A stretch of 41,658 nucleotides of DNA from Sulfobacillus sp. (GTDB lineage Bacteria > Bacillota > Sulfobacillia > Sulfobacillales > Sulfobacillaceae). The notes under the pieces were generated by a model. It saw only the letters and a program-made list of their open reading frames with translations. It did not search any database and was not told where the DNA came from. Below are positions 3,017-13,366 of the stretch, one piece after another. The stretch covers positions 1 through 41,658 of the forward strand of contig DAIDDL010000037.1 of assembly GCA_027309085.1 (NCBI GenBank). The letters are read 5' to 3'. The position numbers were made by a program, and so were the translations under genes. Position 1 is the stretch's first letter, and every line of letters begins with the position of its first letter.

Positions 3017-4612
3017 TCAGTCCCTTGCGGCCCATTGACTCATGGTCCGCGCGAAGCCGCCGGAATCCTGGGTGGCTTGGTCGACAAGATCCCCGAAGTC
3101 GTGAACCCGGTTCAAAAGTTCTTTCACTGGCTGCACCGCGGGCAGGGGAACACTAAGAGAATAGATTCCCATCGCCGCAAACAACACGGCCCACCCAGGG
3201 TCGGCAGCCAGTTGGCCGCACACTCCCAGTGGCCAGTGACTAGCCTGGGCTTCTTGCGCAATCATGTGAATGAAGCGCACAAGCGCCAGCCCGCTCTGGT
3301 GAGAGGCGCGTGACTCGCGGTCGCTGGCAAAAAAATACTGGGACAGATCATTGGTTCCCAAGGAGCCAAAAGCCGCCTGGTGGCGCACAAGTTCCGGCAC
3401 CAGAAATCCCACGGACGGCACCTCAACCATGACACCCAACGCCACCGCCCCGCCGCCGACCTCCTCGGACACCCTTGCGGCGCTGTCACGGCAGAAATCC
3501 CAGTCCTCGACACTGGCCACCATCGGGAACATTACCGAAATAGCTCCCGCCTGGGATGCCCGGTACAGGGCGGTCAACTGGTCATGCAACAGCGTTTCAT
3601 GTTCCCTGTACATGCGCATCCCCCGAAGGCCCAACGCGGGATTGGGTTCGGAGGGCAAATCAAGAAATGCCAAACTTTTGTCGGCCCCAATATCAAACGT
3701 CCGGAATATTACCGGTTTACCGCTCTTTTGGACGGCCTCCCGGTAAATTTCCTCTTGCTCCGCCGCCGACAGCAGCCGCCCCGCCTGTTCCAACAGCATT
3801 TCTGTGCGAAACAGTCCCACGCCGTCAGCGCCTGTGGCAGCGATTTTCTCCGCTTCGGACAGAGAGGAAATATTGGCCCTCACCTCAATCATGGCCCCGC
3901 CGGGCAGGGATATGGGGTGCGCAATCCGTGCCGGGGCGCTGGCCGAATGCCCGGGGGAAGAGGCCGGCGGTTCGGTATCGAACCAGCCCGCTTGCGTGTC
4001 GATGGCTACCCGCTCGCCTTCTCGCACCTGATCACGAAAATCCCGGGACTGCACCGTCACCACAGGTATTCCCAGATTCTGCGCAATCAGTGCGGCATGC
4101 ATAAGCGGGCTTCCCTGGCCAGCAATGACCCCGGCCACCGGCACCTGGGCCCAGTCCAGCATGTCCTGGACCAACAAGGTCTGGCAGACCACGATCGCCC
4201 CGGGAGAGACCGGTGCCTCCGCGACGGGCGCCAAGGCATCACTCCAGAGCGCCCCCACCTCGCGAATGTCGGCCGCCCGCTCTTTCAGATAGGGATCATC
4301 CGCCGCATCCATGACCGCCGCATACTCCTCGCAAGCCTGGTGGATTGCCACTTGTGCGGTTTCTCCGCTAGCCGTGAGCGCCTGCACCCGGGCAAGAAGC
4401 TCCGGGTCCTCGAGCATGGCCTTTTGAGCCAATAAAATGTCTCCACCCGTCTTAGCAGTTTCGGAGTGCGCTGCCAATTTCGTGGCCGCGGCGTCCCGGG
4501 CTTCCTCTACAGTCACACGGGTTAGTGCTGGGGCCGCCTGCCGGCTACTGGCAATATGGACTGGCCCGGCAGCTTGTCCCGGGGATAAGACGGTACACGA
4601 ATAACGCATCAT
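3017..4612 (-). CDS. ptsI: PTS enzyme I (phosphoenolpyruvate-protein phosphotransferase)
   Basis: 531 residues, somewhat shorter than usual EI (about 570). It takes phosphate from PEP and passes it to HPr in the cytoplasm. The N-terminal domain carries the phosphorylatable His in SPLMHAALIAQNLGIP (His172). The residues before the His are PLM instead of the usual RTS/TTS, which is unusual. The PEP-binding barrel is well conserved: GVGLFRTEMLL, FRTFDIGADK, NPALGLRG, GVMVEVPS, GTNDLSQY and the active-site Cys in GVCGQLA (Cys465). The ATG start is preceded by GGAGG. It is divergent from glpA, and the only phosphate acceptors nearby are the HPr gene at 9272 and DhaM. I infer a dedicated phosphate feed to dihydroxyacetone kinase. 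No sugar-specific PTS permease is in the window. Confidence 0.92.
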   Translation of the reverse strand: MMRYSCTVLSPGQAAGPVHIASSRQAAPALTRVTVEEARDAAATKLAAHSETAKTGGDILLAQKAMLEDPELLARVQALTASGETAQVAIHQACEEYAAVMDAADDPYLKERAADIREVGALWSDALAPVAEAPVSPGAIVVCQTLLVQDMLDWAQVPVAGVIAGQGSPLMHAALIAQNLGIPVVTVQSRDFRDQVREGERVAIDTQAGWFDTEPPASSPGHSASAPARIAHPISLPGGAMIEVRANISSLSEAEKIAATGADGVGLFRTEMLLEQAGRLLSAAEQEEIYREAVQKSGKPVIFRTFDIGADKSLAFLDLPSEPNPALGLRGMRMYREHETLLHDQLTALYRASQAGAISVMFPMVASVEDWDFCRDSAARVSEEVGGGAVALGVMVEVPSVGFLVPELVRHQAAFGSLGTNDLSQYFFASDRESRASHQSGLALVRFIHMIAQEAQASHWPLGVCGQLAADPGWAVLFAAMGIYSLSVPLPAVQPVKELLNRVHDFGDLVDQATQDSGGFARTMSQWAARD

Positions 4613-4690: not shown

Positions 4691-4719
4691 TTTACAATGT
4701 CTCCACTATGATTCATAAT
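4691..4719 (+). promoter_or_regulatory. Putative sigma-A promoter of the glp operon
   Basis: A TTTACA -35 at 4691-4696 and a CATAAT -10 at 4714-4719 are separated by exactly 17 bases, in an AT-rich patch of otherwise GC-rich DNA. It sits about 60 bases before the leader hairpin of glpA, which suits a transcript with a 5' leader. The same patch must also hold the divergent ptsI promoter. Confidence 0.55.
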
Positions 4720-4778
4720 ATTTGATAAAGTCAATAGGACATTAAATATGATAAGGTCTTGTCTGGGCAGAGATATGG

Positions 4779-4819
4779 AGAGCTCGGCGGCACCCGAAAG
4801 GGGCTGCCGAGCTCTTTTT
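4779..4819 (+). terminator. Leader terminator/attenuator ahead of glpA, candidate GlpP target
   Basis: AGAGCTCGGC (4779-4788) pairs with GCCGAGCTCT (4806-4815), with an inner CCC-GAAA-GGG stem, followed at once by a run of five T. This is a textbook intrinsic terminator located between the putative promoter and the glpA SD (4821-4828), so unchecked transcription would stop before the operon. In Bacillus, GlpP with glycerol-3-phosphate overcomes such leader terminators of glp genes. A GlpP homologue is encoded in this operon. Confidence 0.75.
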
Positions 4820-4834
4820 GACAGGAGGATGGAT

Positions 4835-6295
4835 ATGGTCGTTGTCATTGGAGCGGGCGCAACGGGTTTGGGGGTCGCCTGGGACCTTGCGTTAAGGGGA
4901 GTCGAGGTTACCGTCATTGACCAGTCGGGAATTGGGTTTGGCACCTCTGGCCGTTTTCACGGCCTACTGCACAGCGGAGCGCGCTACGCCGTAACGGACC
5001 CCACAGCTGCACAAGACTGCCGCGAAGAAAACGCCCGGCTGCGTACGATTGCATCAGGCGCGATTGAAGATACAGGGGGAATTTTCGTCCGCACCCAAGA
5101 CGATGACCCTGCTTTTGAAACCGCATGGCTTGAAGGGTGCAACCGGGCAGGAATCCCCGCCACACGCCTGGATCCACAAAAAGTCCGCATGCGCTACCCT
5201 GAGGTCACGGGGCGCATCGCTTCAGCTTATACCGTGCCTGACGGTGTTTTGGAAGGCTTTCATCTGATGCAGTTGGTTGCTCAAGATATCACGGCCCATC
5301 AGGGGACGGTGTTGACCCACCACCACGTGAGCGCTGTCACGACCGTCGATGGGCGCGTCGCGGGCGTTACCGCCGAGGGCCCCGGGGGACAGGTGCATCT
5401 GCACTGCGACGCAGTGGTCAATGCAGCGGGACCGTGGGCAGGGCGCGTGGCCGAACTGCTCGGGGACCCTATCCCGATGCACCTGTCCTACGGCCTGATG
5501 CTGCTGTTTGCGCAGCGTAAATTTCCTCTTGTGATTAACCGCATGAAAGCTCCGGGAGACGGGGATATCTTTGTGCCCCACCAACGCGTCACCATTCTGG
5601 GAACCACCGATATTGCCCAAGATTCCCCCGAAGCCCCCGCCATCGTGCAGTCAGAAGTCGAGCGCCTAATGACGTTGGGGAGAGAACTCATCCCGTCGCT
5701 AGACTCATGGCGGGTGCTCCGCGCATTCACAGGCGTGCGGCCCCTGTACGAGGGCGAGACGCATGCCGCCAGTTCCCGCGAGGTCAGCCGTGACTTCAAA
5801 GTCATCGACCATCACGCCCGCCACGGTCCTGCTGGCGCATTCTCGGTCGTGGGCGGCAAATGGACGACCTTCCGCCTGATGGCCGAAAGGACCAGTGATA
5901 TGGTGGCTGGATACCTGAAGGTCTCCTCCCCTTGTGTGACCGCAGAGGCCCGCCTTGGAAGCCCACCCGCAAAGATGGCGGCGCCTGAATCCGTGCTCTG
6001 CGAATGCGAAAGAGTCTGCGCTTCTGACTTGCGCGCCGTCAAGGGGTCTGTGGACGAGTGGCGGACAGCCACGTGGTTCTCGATGGGGCCATGCCAGGGC
6101 ACCTTCTGCGCCCACCGTGTCACAGCGCTGCGCCACGCGGTGTTTCCTGAGGAAGATCCGGACGAAATGATTCGCCATTTGCGCGCAGAACGGGCCAAAG
6201 GAATGATTCCCGTGCTATGGGGCGCCAACGCCCGGGAGTACGCGCTGCAGCAGGCTGTACGGTTCCAGACGCTCGAAGAGGGGGAGTCATTATGA
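4835..6295 (+). CDS. glpA: Anaerobic glycerol-3-phosphate dehydrogenase subunit A (FAD)
   Basis: Catalytic flavoprotein oxidising sn-glycerol 3-phosphate to dihydroxyacetone phosphate. The N-terminus is a dinucleotide-binding fold (VVVIGAGATGLG), with a DAO-type FAD domain following (GTSGRFHGLLHSGARY, GTTDIAQDSPEAP, FTGVRPLY, GGKWTTFRLMAE). The C-terminal part has a BFD-like iron-sulphur region with Cys pairs in VLCECERVC and GPCQGTFC, as in E. coli GlpA. From this start it is 486 residues, shorter than the E. coli protein (about 540). I chose the ATG at 4835 because AGGAGG lies 6-7 bases upstream; an ATG at 4829 is too close to the SD, and the longer frame from 4748 would cover the leader terminator. 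The stop overlaps the glpB start by four bases (ATGA), so translation is probably coupled. Confidence 0.93.
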   Translation: MVVVIGAGATGLGVAWDLALRGVEVTVIDQSGIGFGTSGRFHGLLHSGARYAVTDPTAAQDCREENARLRTIASGAIEDTGGIFVRTQDDDPAFETAWLEGCNRAGIPATRLDPQKVRMRYPEVTGRIASAYTVPDGVLEGFHLMQLVAQDITAHQGTVLTHHHVSAVTTVDGRVAGVTAEGPGGQVHLHCDAVVNAAGPWAGRVAELLGDPIPMHLSYGLMLLFAQRKFPLVINRMKAPGDGDIFVPHQRVTILGTTDIAQDSPEAPAIVQSEVERLMTLGRELIPSLDSWRVLRAFTGVRPLYEGETHAASSREVSRDFKVIDHHARHGPAGAFSVVGGKWTTFRLMAERTSDMVAGYLKVSSPCVTAEARLGSPPAKMAAPESVLCECERVCASDLRAVKGSVDEWRTATWFSMGPCQGTFCAHRVTALRHAVFPEEDPDEMIRHLRAERAKGMIPVLWGANAREYALQQAVRFQTLEEGESL

Positions 6296-7479
6296 CAAGG
6301 GTAACCGTGGTTGGGCAAGGACCTGCCGCTCTTTTTGCTGCCTCGCTAATCCGCGAGGCGGGCCACGAATGCATCATCGTGTCCGAGAGTGAAGGCAGTC
6401 TGCCATTATGGAGCGGGACCTTTGATTTTCATGCCCCAGTGGGCGATGTCAGCAATCCGTGGTCCCTGCTTGACAACCAGCCCATATCCCTTTCCGGTCA
6501 AGAGTGGAAGAGTCTCTGGGAAAGTTTGGCGCGTTTTGAACGTGAGGCAGGCATCCCGGTTCCCGATTTGCTGCCCTCGCGCGGACTGTTTACCATTACC
6601 TGCACAGGCCGCGAAAAACCGGTCTTTATGGTTCCCGCCTGGCAATATGCCCAGGAGGCGGCCCAGCCGGTCTGGTTTGTGGGATTTGACGGTTTGGCGG
6701 ACAGCATGGCCGCCTTTCAGTGCGGCGCCTATCAAAAGCATACCGGCGTGGAGGCAAACTATTGTGAAATTCCCAAGCCGTCCAAATGGACTCCTACCTG
6801 GGGCGCAGTGCGCTGGGCCGCCTATGTCGACAGTGACGGGGGTCTGGACTGGCTGAAAAGGGCTCTCCAGAAAGTTTCCCCTGACATCCCTCCCGGTTGG
6901 CCGGTATTGGTGCCCCAGGTCATCGGGCGGAAATTCCCTGAGCGTAACCTGCGCGCCCTGCAGATGGCCACCGGCCACCCTGTCTTTGAGTATCCACTGC
7001 CGCCCCCGTCTTTGGGCGGTATGCGCATCCGTGACCGCTGGGTGTGGAACTTGAAGCAAAGCGGTGTGCAATTTCTGGCAGGGCGGGTTACCCTAGCGGA
7101 GCCATCTGGCCAAATTTCCCTGGAGGATGGACGCGAATGGCGCAGTGACCACATCATTGTGGCTAGCGGGGGAATTTTGGGCGGCGGACTGGAAATTTCG
7201 GTGGATGGAAAAGTCCATGATACGCTAAGGAAGGAAGTGCTGGGCTCAATAACGGTCCGGCAGGACCTGCAGATGCAGGAGTGGGGCCGGTTGGCTGATG
7301 ACGGCACGCCCCGAATCACCACCTGCGGGGCCCAGTGCCGCGGATGGAATCCCAACCGGGATAGCAACGGGGGCGCATTAATTCTGGCTACGGTGTTTCA
7401 GGGTCTCAACCGAGAAGGACTCGTGGCGGTTGGCCCGCCCGGCGCGGTCAGCGAAAGGAGCGTGAGTCATGTGGAATAA
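6292..7479 (+). CDS. glpB: Anaerobic glycerol-3-phosphate dehydrogenase subunit B
   Basis: 395 residues. GlpB is the FMN/flavin-type partner that helps link GlpA to the membrane-bound GlpC in the GlpABC complex. The N-terminus has a flavoprotein-type nucleotide-binding opening (VTVVGQGPAALFAASLIREAG). Later it shows PLPPPSLGGMRIRD, HIIVASGGILGGGL and a C-terminal NRDSNGGALILATVFQG block typical of the family. The start ATG overlaps the glpA stop and the frame runs 11 bases into glpC, so the three subunits are tightly coupled. Several internal shadow frames exist on the other strand but lack family features. Confidence 0.88.
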   Translation: MTRVTVVGQGPAALFAASLIREAGHECIIVSESEGSLPLWSGTFDFHAPVGDVSNPWSLLDNQPISLSGQEWKSLWESLARFEREAGIPVPDLLPSRGLFTITCTGREKPVFMVPAWQYAQEAAQPVWFVGFDGLADSMAAFQCGAYQKHTGVEANYCEIPKPSKWTPTWGAVRWAAYVDSDGGLDWLKRALQKVSPDIPPGWPVLVPQVIGRKFPERNLRALQMATGHPVFEYPLPPPSLGGMRIRDRWVWNLKQSGVQFLAGRVTLAEPSGQISLEDGREWRSDHIIVASGGILGGGLEISVDGKVHDTLRKEVLGSITVRQDLQMQEWGRLADDGTPRITTCGAQCRGWNPNRDSNGGALILATVFQGLNREGLVAVGPPGAVSERSVSHVE

Positions 7480-8659
7480 TGACGACGCGTGCATGAAATG
7501 CTCCATCTGTATCACTGTGTGTCCTGTCTACGGCCAGGACTCCGACTTCCCAGGACCCAAAGCTTTAGGACCTGACTGGTTTCGTGCGTTTCAAGAAAAT
7601 CCTGCGACGCCGGTCATGGAACATGTCGATGACTGCACGTTCTGTCAGCTCTGCGAGGCTTCGTGTCCCGTTCATGTTCCCATTGCGCACCTTATTGCCC
7701 GCCACAAGAGTTTCAAGAAGAAAACGACCCGCATCGCTCTGCGCGATCGAATTTTGGCTCACCCCCAATGGGTGGCGCGGTATCCCCACCTCGCCAACGC
7801 TCCCAGTTTTCTCGTTAAGCCACTGGGTTTCGGTAGTAGGAGCCGCTGGCCCCGCCCACAAAAACGGGTGGGCCGTCTGGTTTCTCCCAACGAGCCCGCA
7901 AAAGCCGCCCAGGTCATTGGATTGTTTGTAGACTGTTACAGCCGGGGCTTTGACCAAGACGTCCTGTCAGCCGCGCAAGCTCTGTTGGAACTCTGGGGCT
8001 TTTCTGTGCGGCTGTTGCCGCACGCCAGCCACTGCTGCGGCGCCGCAGCCTATGCCGCCGGCCAACCGGAGGAAGGACAGCGGATCGCCCGCGCCACGTA
8101 CGAGGCCTTGAGCCCTGACCTCGCGGGGCTGTCCCTTGTGGTAACCTTGAATGCGACGTGTGACAGCACCTTGCGAGAAGAGTGGCCTGTATACTGGAAC
8201 TTGCCTCTGCCTGTGCCGGTGCTTTCCTTCACCGAGTTTGCCTTGAGCCGCGCTCCTGAGTCATTTTGGGAGACCATGAAGAACCAGGCTCCGGGGACGG
8301 CGGGCACCGCGTGGGTCCACACGACCTGCCGCAGCCGGGTGTCGCGGGGTGACGGCATTCTGGAAGCTCTAGTCCAAAAGGCCGGTTTGCCTTCGGTGGA
8401 GCCCCTGAACATGGCCTGTTGCGGCGCTGGTGGCTCCTATGCCTTCAAGGAGGAGCACGAAGACACCGCCCACGCCTTGGGTCTGGTGGCGCTCGAACAG
8501 ATAAAGAACCCCAAGGAAGACAGCATTGTGGTCGACAGCGGCACCTGCGCCCTGCACCTGAGCCAGATTACCGGAGCCGCTGCCAAGCACCCCGCATACT
8601 GGCTCTATCACCGCTACCGGTCCCTGACAGAAAGGAGTGTCGAGATTGGTTCTCAATAA
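7469..8659 (+). CDS. glpC: Anaerobic glycerol-3-phosphate dehydrogenase subunit C (Fe-S)
   Basis: 396 residues. GlpC anchors GlpAB at the membrane and passes electrons to the quinone pool. Two ferredoxin-type 4Fe-4S clusters are visible: C8-x2-C11-x2-C14-x3-C18P and C56-x2-C59-x2-C62-x3-C66P. Two cysteine-rich CCG domains follow, with signatures HASHCCGAAAY and NMACCGAGGSYAF. This is the heterodisulfide-reductase-like build of GlpC. The ATG lies inside the end of glpB. The reading frame ends 23 bases past the first possible glpP start. The GlpABC type, rather than the single-chain GlpD used by aerobic bacilli, suggests use under low oxygen or a preference for a particular quinone. Confidence 0.93.
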   Translation: MWNNDDACMKCSICITVCPVYGQDSDFPGPKALGPDWFRAFQENPATPVMEHVDDCTFCQLCEASCPVHVPIAHLIARHKSFKKKTTRIALRDRILAHPQWVARYPHLANAPSFLVKPLGFGSRSRWPRPQKRVGRLVSPNEPAKAAQVIGLFVDCYSRGFDQDVLSAAQALLELWGFSVRLLPHASHCCGAAAYAAGQPEEGQRIARATYEALSPDLAGLSLVVTLNATCDSTLREEWPVYWNLPLPVPVLSFTEFALSRAPESFWETMKNQAPGTAGTAWVHTTCRSRVSRGDGILEALVQKAGLPSVEPLNMACCGAGGSYAFKEEHEDTAHALGLVALEQIKNPKEDSIVVDSGTCALHLSQITGAAAKHPAYWLYHRYRSLTERSVEIGSQ

Positions 8660-9251
8660 GAGTGTCATGCCCGTTGTGATCCGCGCCATTCGCGACCCGG
8701 GCCAGTGGGAGGACCTGTCTCAATCCGAGCCAGGCTGGGTCTTTATTCTAGGGGGCGCAATTGACAGTGTGGCTGAAAGTGTAGCCCGCCTCCAACGCAT
8801 GCGCTGCACGGTTTTTGTCCACGTAGATATGGTCAAGGGCCTTAGCAGCGACTTTGACGGCATCAGGTTTTTTCAGGACTTTGCGTCGCCGGACGGCATC
8901 ATCACGACGCACCAGCACACCATCAACCACGCGAAAAAACTGGGACTCACCGCCATTCAGCGCGTCTTCCTGCTGGATAGCCAGTCCGTTGATTCCGGCA
9001 TCCAGCAAATCGCGCATGCCGACGCCGATGCGGTGGAAGTCCTGCCCGGTGTCTTGCCCTTGCTTATCCGCTATCTCTGCCAGAGAATCTCCAAGCCGCT
9101 CATCGCTGGTGGGCTCGTCAAGACGGAGCAGCAGGTCTTGGACGCTCTGGCAGCGGGCGCAGTCAGTGTCTCCAGCAGCACTGAAGCACTGTCGCGGAAA
9201 CTCTGGAAACGGGACTCTTTACAGGGGCCCGCAGCAATGCCACAACGTTAA
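8646..9251 (+). CDS. glpP: Glycerol operon antiterminator GlpP
   Basis: About 200 residues matching the GlpP family, TIM-barrel-like RNA-binding antiterminators that sense glycerol-3-phosphate. Family blocks include FILGGAIDS, VFVHVDMVKGLSSD, FFQDFASPDGIITTH, GLTAIQRVFLLDSQS, DAVEVLPGVLP, KPLIAGGLVKTEQQVLDALAAGAVSVSSS. The SD AAAGGAG at 8631-8637 overlaps the upstream GTG (8637), so I place the start at TTG 8646, eight bases after it; ATG 8667 is a further option. It overlaps glpC and precedes the HPr gene. Its likely targets are the leader terminators before glpA (4779-4819) and perhaps the hairpin before glpK (9540-9576). Having the regulator inside the operon would give positive feedback. 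Confidence 0.9.
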   Translation: MVLNKSVMPVVIRAIRDPGQWEDLSQSEPGWVFILGGAIDSVAESVARLQRMRCTVFVHVDMVKGLSSDFDGIRFFQDFASPDGIITTHQHTINHAKKLGLTAIQRVFLLDSQSVDSGIQQIAHADADAVEVLPGVLPLLIRYLCQRISKPLIAGGLVKTEQQVLDALAAGAVSVSSSTEALSRKLWKRDSLQGPAAMPQR

Positions 9252-9271: not shown

Positions 9272-9529
9272 ATGATCACGCGCCATTACATCATCAACGA
9301 TCCCCAGGGCCTTCACGCGCGGCCTGCAGCACAGTTTGTCCAGGCCGTGGCGATCTGCCCGGGAACAGTCCACGTCACCTTTCACGGCAAAGAGGTTAAC
9401 GGCAAAAGCATTCTCAATATCCTTTCGCTTGGCGTGCGCAGCGGAGACCAAATCACTGTCGCCTATGAAACGGAGGACCAGGCGACCGTGAACCAGTGCG
9501 AGTTGGCACTGAAGCCGCTGCTGAGTTAG
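9272..9529 (+). CDS. ptsH: Phosphocarrier protein HPr
   Basis: 85 residues, full-length HPr. The PEP-dependent phosphorylation site is His15 in GLHARPAA. The regulatory serine is Ser46 in [13 protein letters not shown], as in Firmicute HPr that is a target of HPr kinase. It carries phosphate from EI to EIIA domains; the only acceptor visible here is DhaM. The nearest SD (AGGAGG at 9253-9258) is 13 bases from the ATG, a long spacing that may lower translation. The gene follows glpP by 20 bases. Whether Ser46 is used for catabolite repression depends on an HPr kinase, which is not in this window. Confidence 0.93.
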
Positions 9530-9539
9530 CTCGCTCAAT

Positions 9540-9576
9540 GGGGGTGACAGCCGTGAGATCATCGGCTGTCACCCCC
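9540..9576 (+). terminator. Hairpin after HPr gene, before the glpF relic and glpK
   Basis: A perfect 13-bp stem, GGGGGTGACAGCC (9540-9552) with GGCTGTCACCCCC (9564-9576), and an 11-base loop. It is followed by GATGGCCTTTTG, a weak T-tract. It may end the glpABCP-HPr message, or act as a second antitermination control point for glpK-dhaKLM. Confidence 0.6.
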
Positions 9577-9640
9577 GATGGCCTTTTGATAGCCCGCTTC
9601 TCTAAATCTTTCCGTATAATTCACCAAATTATTAATTTAA

Positions 9641-9816
9641 TCAACATCAATCGAATCTTGCATATTTGGTTATTGGTGGGTGCCTATTCTCGGTCCGCTG
9701 GTGGGCGCGGTCATTGCCGTACTGGTATACAAGTACGGGATCGAACTTACACTGGACCGAAAAAAACAGGCGGCGGAAACGGAAGGGTCCGAGGAATCGG
9801 CAAGGAGGGCAGCCCA

Positions 9817-9820
<4 letters not shown>
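9641..9820 (+). pseudogene. glpF: C-terminal remnant of glycerol facilitator GlpF
   Basis: In a frame different from the one that reads into glpK, the sequence translates to [20 protein letters not shown] and then a charged tail ([17 protein letters not shown]) ending at TGA 9818-9820. The VPI-GP-VGA-block is the last transmembrane segment of aquaglyceroporins, and a charged cytoplasmic tail is usual after it. The TGA overlaps the glpK ATG (ATGA), as expected for a former glpF-glpK pair. Upstream the frame runs only to a stop at 9638-9640, has no good start and lacks both NPA motifs, so about 80 percent of the gene is missing. The AT-rich stretch 9600-9660 probably marks the deletion joint. 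Confidence 0.75.
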
Positions 9821-11319
<1,499 letters not shown>

Positions 11320-11350: not shown

Positions 11351-12361
11351 TTGAAAAAAATTATGAACAGCCCGGACACGTTGGTAGCAGAGGCTGTGGA
11401 GGGTCTGGTGATTTCGTTCCCGCAGTATCTCAAGCAAGTACCGGGAACTCACGTCCTGACCCGGGTTCATTCTAAGCCAGCGGGACGTGTGGGCATCGTC
11501 TCCGGAGGAGGGTCAGGCCACGAACCCGCTCATGCCGGCTACGTGGGATACGGCATGCTGGATGCCGCAGTCGCGGGAGAAGTGTTCACGTCCCCAACAC
11601 CTGACCAGATTCTGGAGGGCATTAAAGCCGCCAATCATGGAGCGGGAGTCTTGATGGTGGTGAAAAACTATACGGGTGACGTCATGAATTTTGATATTGC
11701 CCGCGAACTTGCTGAGGCACAGGGGATTCACACTGCCACTGTCGTCGTAAATGACGACGTCGCCGTCGAAAATTCTTCATTTACCACGGGGCGGCGGGGG
11801 ATTGCCGGAACAATTTTTGTCCACAAAATCGCGGGAGCGCTAGCTGAGCAGGGTGCTTCTCTCGCTGAGGTCGAAGCCGCCGCCAACAATGTCATTGCCC
11901 ACGTGCGCTCTATGGGGTTGGCTCTGGAACCCTGCACCGTCCCAGAGGCAGGGGCACCAACGTTTACCTTGGCCGATGATGAGATCGAGATGGGGGTCGG
12001 CATTCACGGCGAACCTGGCATCGAGCGGCAGAAAATACGTCCGGCGCACGAACTGGCTGCGGCTCTACTGGAAAAAATTTCGGGCGATTTGCCCCTGAAA
12101 TCCGGGGACCACCTGGCCTGTATCGTAAACGGTCTGGGAGCCACGCCGCTTCTGGAACTGGCCGGACTGGCGCGCGAAGTCTCGTTGTGGACTCAAAACC
12201 ACGGCATGACACTGGATATCGTGTGGACTGGAGAATTCATGACCTCCCTGGAGATGGCTGGCGCTTCGCTGACTCTGCTTCCGCTCGACGAATCGCTAAC
12301 CGGGCTGCTTCAGGCGCCCTGCGACACCCCCGCCTTGCGGCAGGGCGTTGCCCATGACTAA
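11351..12361 (+). CDS. dhaK: Dihydroxyacetone kinase subunit K (substrate-binding)
   Basis: 336 residues. DhaK binds dihydroxyacetone covalently through a His and accepts phosphate from DhaL-ADP/ATP. The key residues align with the E. coli enzyme: His57 in GGGSGHEPAH, Asp110 in NYTGDVMNF and the covalent His219 in GVGIHGEPG. The start is TTG at 11351, with GAAAGGAG at 11334-11341; the ATG four codons later has a poorer distance. The end overlaps dhaL by eight bases. The order K-L-M matches PTS-dependent kinases, in contrast to the fused ATP-dependent Dak type. Confidence 0.95.
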   Translation: MKKIMNSPDTLVAEAVEGLVISFPQYLKQVPGTHVLTRVHSKPAGRVGIVSGGGSGHEPAHAGYVGYGMLDAAVAGEVFTSPTPDQILEGIKAANHGAGVLMVVKNYTGDVMNFDIARELAEAQGIHTATVVVNDDVAVENSSFTTGRRGIAGTIFVHKIAGALAEQGASLAEVEAAANNVIAHVRSMGLALEPCTVPEAGAPTFTLADDEIEMGVGIHGEPGIERQKIRPAHELAAALLEKISGDLPLKSGDHLACIVNGLGATPLLELAGLAREVSLWTQNHGMTLDIVWTGEFMTSLEMAGASLTLLPLDESLTGLLQAPCDTPALRQGVAHD

Positions 12362-12983
12362 CGCGGACTTCCGGCAGCTCTGGCTCTGTTTTGGCCAGGC
12401 TGCCGCCCAGAACAAAGAGGAGCTGAACCGCCTCGATGCCGCCATTGGCGATGCCGACCACGGAACTAATATGGACCGGGGCATGCAAAAGGTTGCCGAG
12501 CAATTGACCTCCTGCCCACCCCCGACCTTACAGGCTACGTGCAAAATGGTCGCGATGACACTCTTAAGCACGGTGGGAGGAGCATCCGGAGCCCTCTGGG
12601 GGTCCGGCCTGCTCGCTGCATCCAAGGTGTTTCCGGACATGGACTCGTGTGACGACAAGACCTTGGCGGCAGCCTTGCAGACGTTTGTCAGCAGCATCCA
12701 GCAGAGGGGCAAAGCCGTGGCGGGAGACAAGACAATGCTGGATGTATTCCTTCCTGCCACAGCCGAACTTAGCCAGGAAGTTGACCATGCCCCCGCCGCC
12801 TCTGTAATTCCGCCGATTGCCGCGGAGGCCAAACAGTGGGCAGAAGCTACCGCCCCCCTTTTGGCCAAGAGAGGGCGTGCCGCCTACCTTGGTGCTCGCA
12901 GCATCGGCCATATTGACCCGGGCGCCACCTCTTCCGCCCTGTGGTGGGACTGCTTGGGGCGGGTCATGGGGTCCAGCAAATGA
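12354..12983 (+). CDS. dhaL: Dihydroxyacetone kinase subunit L (nucleotide-binding)
   Basis: 209 residues from the ATG at 12354. DhaL holds a permanently bound ADP that is rephosphorylated by DhaM and then phosphorylates dihydroxyacetone on DhaK. The Mg/ADP site is visible as LDAAIGDADHGTNMDRGM. VGGASGALWGSGLLAAS and RAAYLGARSIGHIDPGATSSAL match the rest of the helical barrel. A TTG six bases upstream (12348) is possible but less likely. The stop overlaps the dhaM ATG (ATGA at 12980-12983). Confidence 0.95.
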   Translation: MTNADFRQLWLCFGQAAAQNKEELNRLDAAIGDADHGTNMDRGMQKVAEQLTSCPPPTLQATCKMVAMTLLSTVGGASGALWGSGLLAASKVFPDMDSCDDKTLAAALQTFVSSIQQRGKAVAGDKTMLDVFLPATAELSQEVDHAPAASVIPPIAAEAKQWAEATAPLLAKRGRAAYLGARSIGHIDPGATSSALWWDCLGRVMGSSK

Positions 12984-13366
12984 CAGGTCTGCTGCTGGTT
13001 TCCCATTCCCGAAAACTTGTTGACGGACTGGCCGACCTGACGCGGGAACTCAGCGGCCCTTCGGTGCCAATCGCCACCGCTGGCGGTGAGGATACTCTGG
13101 GAGTCACCGCGGCTATGGTCGCAGAAAGCATATCATTGCTGCTGTCCCAAGGGGTGAGCGGGATCCTGATTTTTGGTGACGTCGGCAGCGCCTTTATCGC
13201 CGCGGAAACGGCGGTTGAATTAGCCGCCAGTTCCAAACCCGTGCAAATCGTGGACGCGCCCTTAGTGGAAGGCGCCATTGCGGCTGCGATGACCTTGAGC
13301 ACAGGAGCCGGCATGGACGAAGCCCGACAGGCGGGAGAGGAAGCCTATACCATTCGCAAGCAATGA
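12980..13366 (+). CDS. dhaM: PTS-dependent dihydroxyacetone kinase phosphotransferase subunit DhaM (EIIA domain)
   Basis: 128 residues, a single mannose-type EIIA domain. The phosphorylated His is His9 in LLLVSHSRKLVDGL. GGEDTLGVTAAMVAESI, GVSGILIFGDVGSA and VDAPLVEGAIAAAM fit the family. Unlike E. coli DhaM it carries no HPr-like or EI-like domains, so it must rely on separate HPr and EI, both of which are supplied by this locus. The ATG at 12980 overlaps the dhaL stop; the longer frame from 12941 has no start signal. It is the last gene of the run, before the hairpin at 13413. Confidence 0.93.
   Translation: MTGLLLVSHSRKLVDGLADLTRELSGPSVPIATAGGEDTLGVTAAMVAESISLLLSQGVSGILIFGDVGSAFIAAETAVELAASSKPVQIVDAPLVEGAIAAAMTLSTGAGMDEARQAGEEAYTIRKQ

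Follow-up and report, generated by a model that had tools for sequence, protein, structure and literature searches.

In a 41,658-nucleotide contig of Sulfobacillus sp. (GenBank assembly GCA_027309085.1, contig DAIDDL010000037.1; the whole stretch is hereafter the window), an intrinsic terminator stands between a promoter and glpA, the first gene of a glycerol operon, and the question raised by this locus is what would allow RNA polymerase to pass it. The first-pass annotation, made from the letters alone, described a promoter-like pair, a hairpin with a U-run, a Shine-Dalgarno sequence and glpA in that order, and suggested control by GlpP antitermination. Sequence and folding analysis located all of these elements at 4691-4835 (Table 1). 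We propose that the glpA leader is very probably a GlpP-dependent transcription attenuator controlling glpABC-glpP-HPr-glpK-dhaKLM. Our assignment, like the suggestion that preceded it, a guess based on the proximity of the genes, is drawn from sequence; it is made because the leader carries a box also present in Bacilli glpFK and glpD leaders, because relatives preserve both hairpin and box, with compensatory changes, and because the leader co-occurs with GlpP in 61 related genomes.

The promoter is among the top σ70-like scores of the first 12 kb, where one other site ties with it (10/12 matches). It is nearly letter-identical in G004, of the same genus, and the equivalent promoter in two further members of the genus (G001 and G005) is TTTACA-17-TATAAT / CATACT. 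The terminator consists of a stem of 14+3 bp with one bulged A, an inner CCC/GGG segment (4793-4795 / 4800-4802) closing a GAAA loop (4796-4799), and a TTTTT tail. The region 4726-4840 folds at -44.8 kcal/mol, as compared with -27.6 +/- 3.0 for shuffled sequences (z = -5.8; 0/200 as good). Homologues of GlpA begin at ATG 4835, which was taken as the start despite in-frame ATGs at 4748 and 4829. Because the ptsI-like gene on the other side is divergent and no same-strand gene lies directly upstream, the hairpin does not end the transcript of a preceding gene, and, placed just behind the promoter, it can act on the glpA operon alone. An intrinsic terminator between the promoter and the first gene, one of the defining features of GlpP leaders, is present.

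Table 1. Features of the glpA leader and of the surrounding genes (positions in the window)
Feature	Positions	Strand	Remarks
ptsI-like enzyme I	3017-4612	-	divergent; outside this leader's control
Promoter	4691-4719	+	-35 TTTACA 4691-4696, 17-nt spacer, -10 CATAAT 4714-4719; 10/12 consensus
Leader RNA, predicted attenuated transcript	4725-4819	+	~95 nt; start deduced from the position of the -10
Antiterminator 5' arm, putative	4763-4768	+	CUGGGC; 4756-4758 and 4761 add further pairs
GlpP box	4770-4781	+	GAGA-UAU-GGAGA; inside the 13-nt putative antiterminator loop 4769-4781
Shared arm	4782-4791	+	putative antiterminator 3' arm 4782-4787 (extendable to 4791) and terminator 5' arm
Intrinsic terminator	4780-4819	+	arms 4780-4791 / 4803-4814; U-run 4815-4819
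Shine-Dalgarno of glpA	4823-4828	+	AGGAGG
glpA, anaerobic-type glycerol-3-phosphate dehydrogenase subunit A	4835-6295	+	TIGR03377 1e-147, below model cut-off
glpB	6289-7479	+	NF003724 1.6e-15, diverged, below cut-off
glpC	7469-8659	+	NF008369 1e-54, below model cut-off
glpP, glycerol-3-phosphate responsive antiterminator	8646-9251	+	PF04309 2.2e-54; TTG start
HPr	9272-9529	+	PF00381 9e-21
glpF remnant	9662-9820	+	last ~52 codons only; stop overlaps glpK start
glpK, glycerol kinase	9817-11319	+	TIGR01311 3e-218
dhaK, dhaL, dhaM (EIIA-type)	11351-13366	+	11351-12361, 12348-12983, 12941-13366

The candidate regulator is encoded in the same run of genes, as the first-pass annotation had claimed. 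The protein encoded behind glpC belongs to PF04309 (E = 2.2e-54) and is homologous to 3kts and 1vkf, and its gene is present in the genome as a single copy, located in the glpA operon.

The decisive feature is GAGA-UAU-GGAGA, which adjoins the terminator on its 5' side and is the only exact box match in the window; neither this box nor the alternative hairpin described below had been noticed in the first reading. In the genome of Bacillus spizizenii TU-B-10, the leaders of glpFK and glpD both have GAGA-N3-GGAGA at the base of their terminators (GGAGAACUCGGAGA and UGAGAUGAGGAGA). The same motif abuts the terminator in many other Bacilli glp leaders, a set that was collected by box plus terminator and that shows the box to be common, not how many leaders are without it. 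The box alone is not rare, a match to the 12-mer occurring in 20/100 shuffles of the window, and the case consequently rests on its position, on the stem and on conservation.

Two models were used to relate the glpA leader to those of Bacilli: R1, a covariance model from the glpA leaders of 18 relatives, and R2, built from Bacilli leaders only. When R1 was run over 577 kb of Bacilli glp loci, the best eleven matches, and about 20 of 25, fell on box-bearing glp leaders. R2 ranked the glpA leader first in the window (E = 5e-4; next 0.16) and third genome-wide (E 0.06). Cross-detection by the two models indicates a target common to the glpA leader and the Bacillus glpD/glpFK leaders. A MAFFT alignment that combined Bacilli leaders of the glpF and glpD types was one base out of register, and a set of glpD-type leaders only was used instead. 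The site also came top of the window with a strict position matrix derived from Bacilli leaders, but its score of 9.99 compares with 8.9 +/- 3.4 in random windows, and the matrix was excluded as evidence.

Searches of Rfam at gathering and permissive thresholds returned no relevant family at the glpA leader, none reaching threshold, and Rfam 15 searched with Bacillus GlpP leaders gave no match. This result, together with a box common to relatives and a glp gene run in which no PRD regulator was noted, makes it highly improbable that the leader belongs to another attenuation system, be it a leader peptide, a riboswitch, a T-box or a PRD (LicT/SacY) antiterminator, even though the adjoining HPr and enzyme I genes would be compatible with PRD control and the glpA frame could be extended back to ATG 4748.

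GlpA homologues are encoded in 29 of 61 related genomes, most of which have a short terminator-ending leader upstream of glpA. In the leaders of 18 relatives, 85.8% of the cells of the terminator stem are paired, as opposed to 35-50% in slid controls, and 11 of its 13 pairs exhibit compensatory (two-sided) changes (0/500 shuffles); the sequence of these leaders varies while the stem is kept. Directly before the stem the relatives have GAGA (CAGA in two), 3 or 4 bases, and then (G/A/U)GAGA. Conservation of the hairpin in relatives with the same operon, which the first-pass annotation had named as one of the points at which its reading could fail, was thus found for hairpin and box alike.

The distribution of the leader follows that of the protein. 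A clear GlpP is encoded in 27 of the 61 genomes, and R1 matches at E <= 0.003 occur in 22 of these 27 and in 2 of the 34 GlpP-lacking genomes (Fisher test 8e-10, ignoring relatedness). Where the region upstream of glpA is readable, the leader is found in 19 of 22 genomes with GlpP and in 1 of 6 without it. In the three GlpP-bearing exceptions (G050, G052 and G056) glpA lies behind glpK, and in G050 and G052 a box is located further upstream, before glpF or glpP. Four genomes (G010, G013, G019 and G021) have glpA directly behind glpK, with neither GlpP nor a leader. Across the 61 genomes the target is generally missing where GlpP is missing, the exceptions being two draft genomes that carry the leader: G017, which has only a divergent GlpP-like protein, and G038, which has no GlpP match. 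Weak R1 matches (E 0.005-0.008; G004:C1:1198008, G009:C150 and G001:C65) are not near glp genes and were taken as chance.

The terminator could in principle be a constitutive attenuator or a stabilizing 5' hairpin unrelated to GlpP, its linkage to these genes being coincidental. In favor of this reading, GlpP also stabilizes glpD mRNA in B. subtilis (PMC7430163); the presence of a GlpP-type box that co-occurs with GlpP nevertheless renders this explanation very unlikely.

Folding the 5' part of each leader alone revealed a second structure in common, in which a 5' arm pairs with the left arm of the terminator and the box occupies the loop. In the window, CUGGGC pairs with GCUCGG (4782-4787) around AGAGAUAUGGAGA, and Bacilli leaders share the plan with different arms (GGUU/GACC in the glpD type, GUGA/UCAC in the glpF type, CGUGG/CCACG in others). 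Among the Bacilli, 59 of 70 leaders form at least 4 bp with their own flanks, as opposed to 41 expected by flank swapping and a maximum of 50 in 1000 swaps. The mean helix score in this order and class is 12.55, versus 10.79 +/- 0.56 for swapped flanks, and 3/2000 swaps were as good. Pairing in register within this order reaches 68% of cells, versus 28-48% in slid controls; column covariation there (alignment A3) is modest (8/500 shuffles), and pairs with two-sided changes show no excess over shuffles. This second hairpin looks like an antiterminator that is mutually exclusive with the terminator, for which the support is good in Bacilli and moderate in this order, and it is the least certain step of the switch model.

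GlpP might instead bind the box as a single strand and mask the base of the terminator stem, leaving the alternative hairpin unused. Such a mode would fit the overlap of the second GAGA with the stem base, the Bacilli antiterminator stems of mostly only 4-7 bp, and a 5' part whose own stability does not exceed that of shuffles (mean z -0.13). The superior pairing of own over swapped flanks, both in Bacilli and in this order and class, and the in-register pairing relative to slid controls argue against it, and we regard it as an unlikely, though serious, alternative. If the antiterminator hairpin is used, as we favor, the protein would have to hold it, since fold energy alone does not favor this structure.

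What GlpP does, and its response to the ligand glycerol-3-phosphate, are taken from B. subtilis work as cited in PMC9604022 and PMC7430163; in that organism the 5' UTRs belonging to the glpD, glpT and glpFK promoters are reported to contain a terminator together with a site for GlpP (PMC9604022). By extension, polymerase would start near 4725 and, with little glycerol-3-phosphate, the terminator would form and an RNA of ~95 nt would be released. Upon accumulation of glycerol-3-phosphate, ligand-bound GlpP would recognize the GAGA-N3-GGAGA box displayed in the loop of the alternative hairpin, which would take up the 5' arm of the terminator. Holding this hairpin would block the terminator, and polymerase would enter glpABC-glpP-HPr-glpK-dhaKLM, as we infer from anatomy and conservation.

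Read-through would raise the operon's own activator since glpP lies within the operon, and the gene order suggests that basal read-through could prime a positive feedback. In most leader-bearing relatives glpP follows glpC. In G052 the gene immediately behind a leader is glpP itself, and R1 matches indicate the same for G024, G026 and G030, which suggests that autoregulation recurs.

The regulon may extend beyond this operon. R1 detected only the glpA leader in its own genome. R2 gave one further credible site in the same genome (G000:C95:46112-46182; L202 2112-2182), CGGGUU-[GGAGACGACGAGA]-AACCCG plus a terminator, which precedes a decayed HAD phosphatase gene and a PhnS/UgpC-like ABC importer. 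In G008 the equivalent transporter has an intact HAD gene and its own leader (L149 2716-2652, minus strand), divergent from glpA; in G014 and G022 the transporter is just upstream of glpA, and the search for a leader preceding it gave no clear candidate. The importer is a candidate GlpP-controlled organophosphate importer. We tentatively suggest, as an idea still open to considerable doubt, that GlpP reads one RNA architecture across Bacillota, with a short hairpin that displays the box in its loop and borrows the terminator 5' arm as its own 3' arm, and with no match in Rfam, and that in this order it has been rewired to a self-amplifying glpABCP operon and, as a second target, to this importer, whose substrate may be glycerol-3-phosphate or something similar. 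In another genome (G044; L157 351-423) a strong Bacilli-like GlpP leader (R2 E 5e-9) precedes a gene for an alpha/beta-hydrolase-like membrane protein, not a glp gene.

Several features of the downstream genes were observed in passing. The glpF stub between HPr and glpK has a similar counterpart in G004, while G031 and G011 have an intact glpF at the equivalent place; two further MIP genes lie elsewhere in the genome (C114, C1). The gap between HPr and the stub contains a near-perfect 17-bp hairpin (9539-9577) with a poor U-run. It lacks a GlpP box, and a second GlpP switch before glpK was rejected; at the equivalent place before the intact glpF, G011 and G031 have a GAGA box within a terminator-like stem. 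GlpK contains DTEWLG where Bacillus GlpK has ..DYHFFG.., so that the histidine, which we take to be the HPr phosphorylation site, is absent; the partner of the HPr encoded in the operon may therefore be DhaM and not GlpK. The genes for enzyme I, HPr and the DhaM-type EIIA flank or lie within the glycerol operon, and a dedicated phosphorelay for dihydroxyacetone kinase is possible.

The leader class itself is known, as in the B. subtilis glpD leaders; the glpABC target and the autoregulation are new within the literature searched, which yielded no paper that describes control of glpABC by GlpP, and within those bounds the earlier description of the arrangement as less described is fair. GlpP antitermination, hitherto a matter of glpD-type genes in Bacilli, would by these results extend to a different bacterial lineage and to an operon of the GlpABC type. 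The box and hairpin provide a searchable signature for GlpP regulons and a concrete, mutable hypothesis for RNA recognition by GlpP. In Thermotoga maritima, GlpP and GlpABC are listed together in one glycerol pathway, as here, in a study that describes no leader and states that the GlpP regulon was not studied (PMC3750489). With the LicT/SacY/BglG proteins and their RAT leaders, the glpA leader shares a protein-stabilized antiterminator, here predicted, that excludes the terminator. GlpP, however, is an unrelated protein (PF04309; 3kts/1vkf), its box lies in a large purine-rich loop, and the leader has no Rfam match. The closest system comprises GlpP and the glpD, glpFK and glpTQ leaders of B. 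subtilis (Holmberg & Rutberg 1992; Glatz et al. 1996, 1998; Darbon et al. 2002, as cited in PMC9604022 and PMC3997798). The Sulfobacillus leader resembles Bacillus leaders, whose box was read in B. spizizenii TU-B-10, in its promoter, GAGA-N3-GGAGA box, abutting terminator, downstream glycerol genes and a GlpP in the genome. Unlike in B. subtilis, the predicted target is glpABC-glpP-HPr-glpK-dhaKLM rather than glpD or glpFK, and glpP, which in the Bacillus locus examined lies upstream of the glpFK leader, is here located inside its own target operon.
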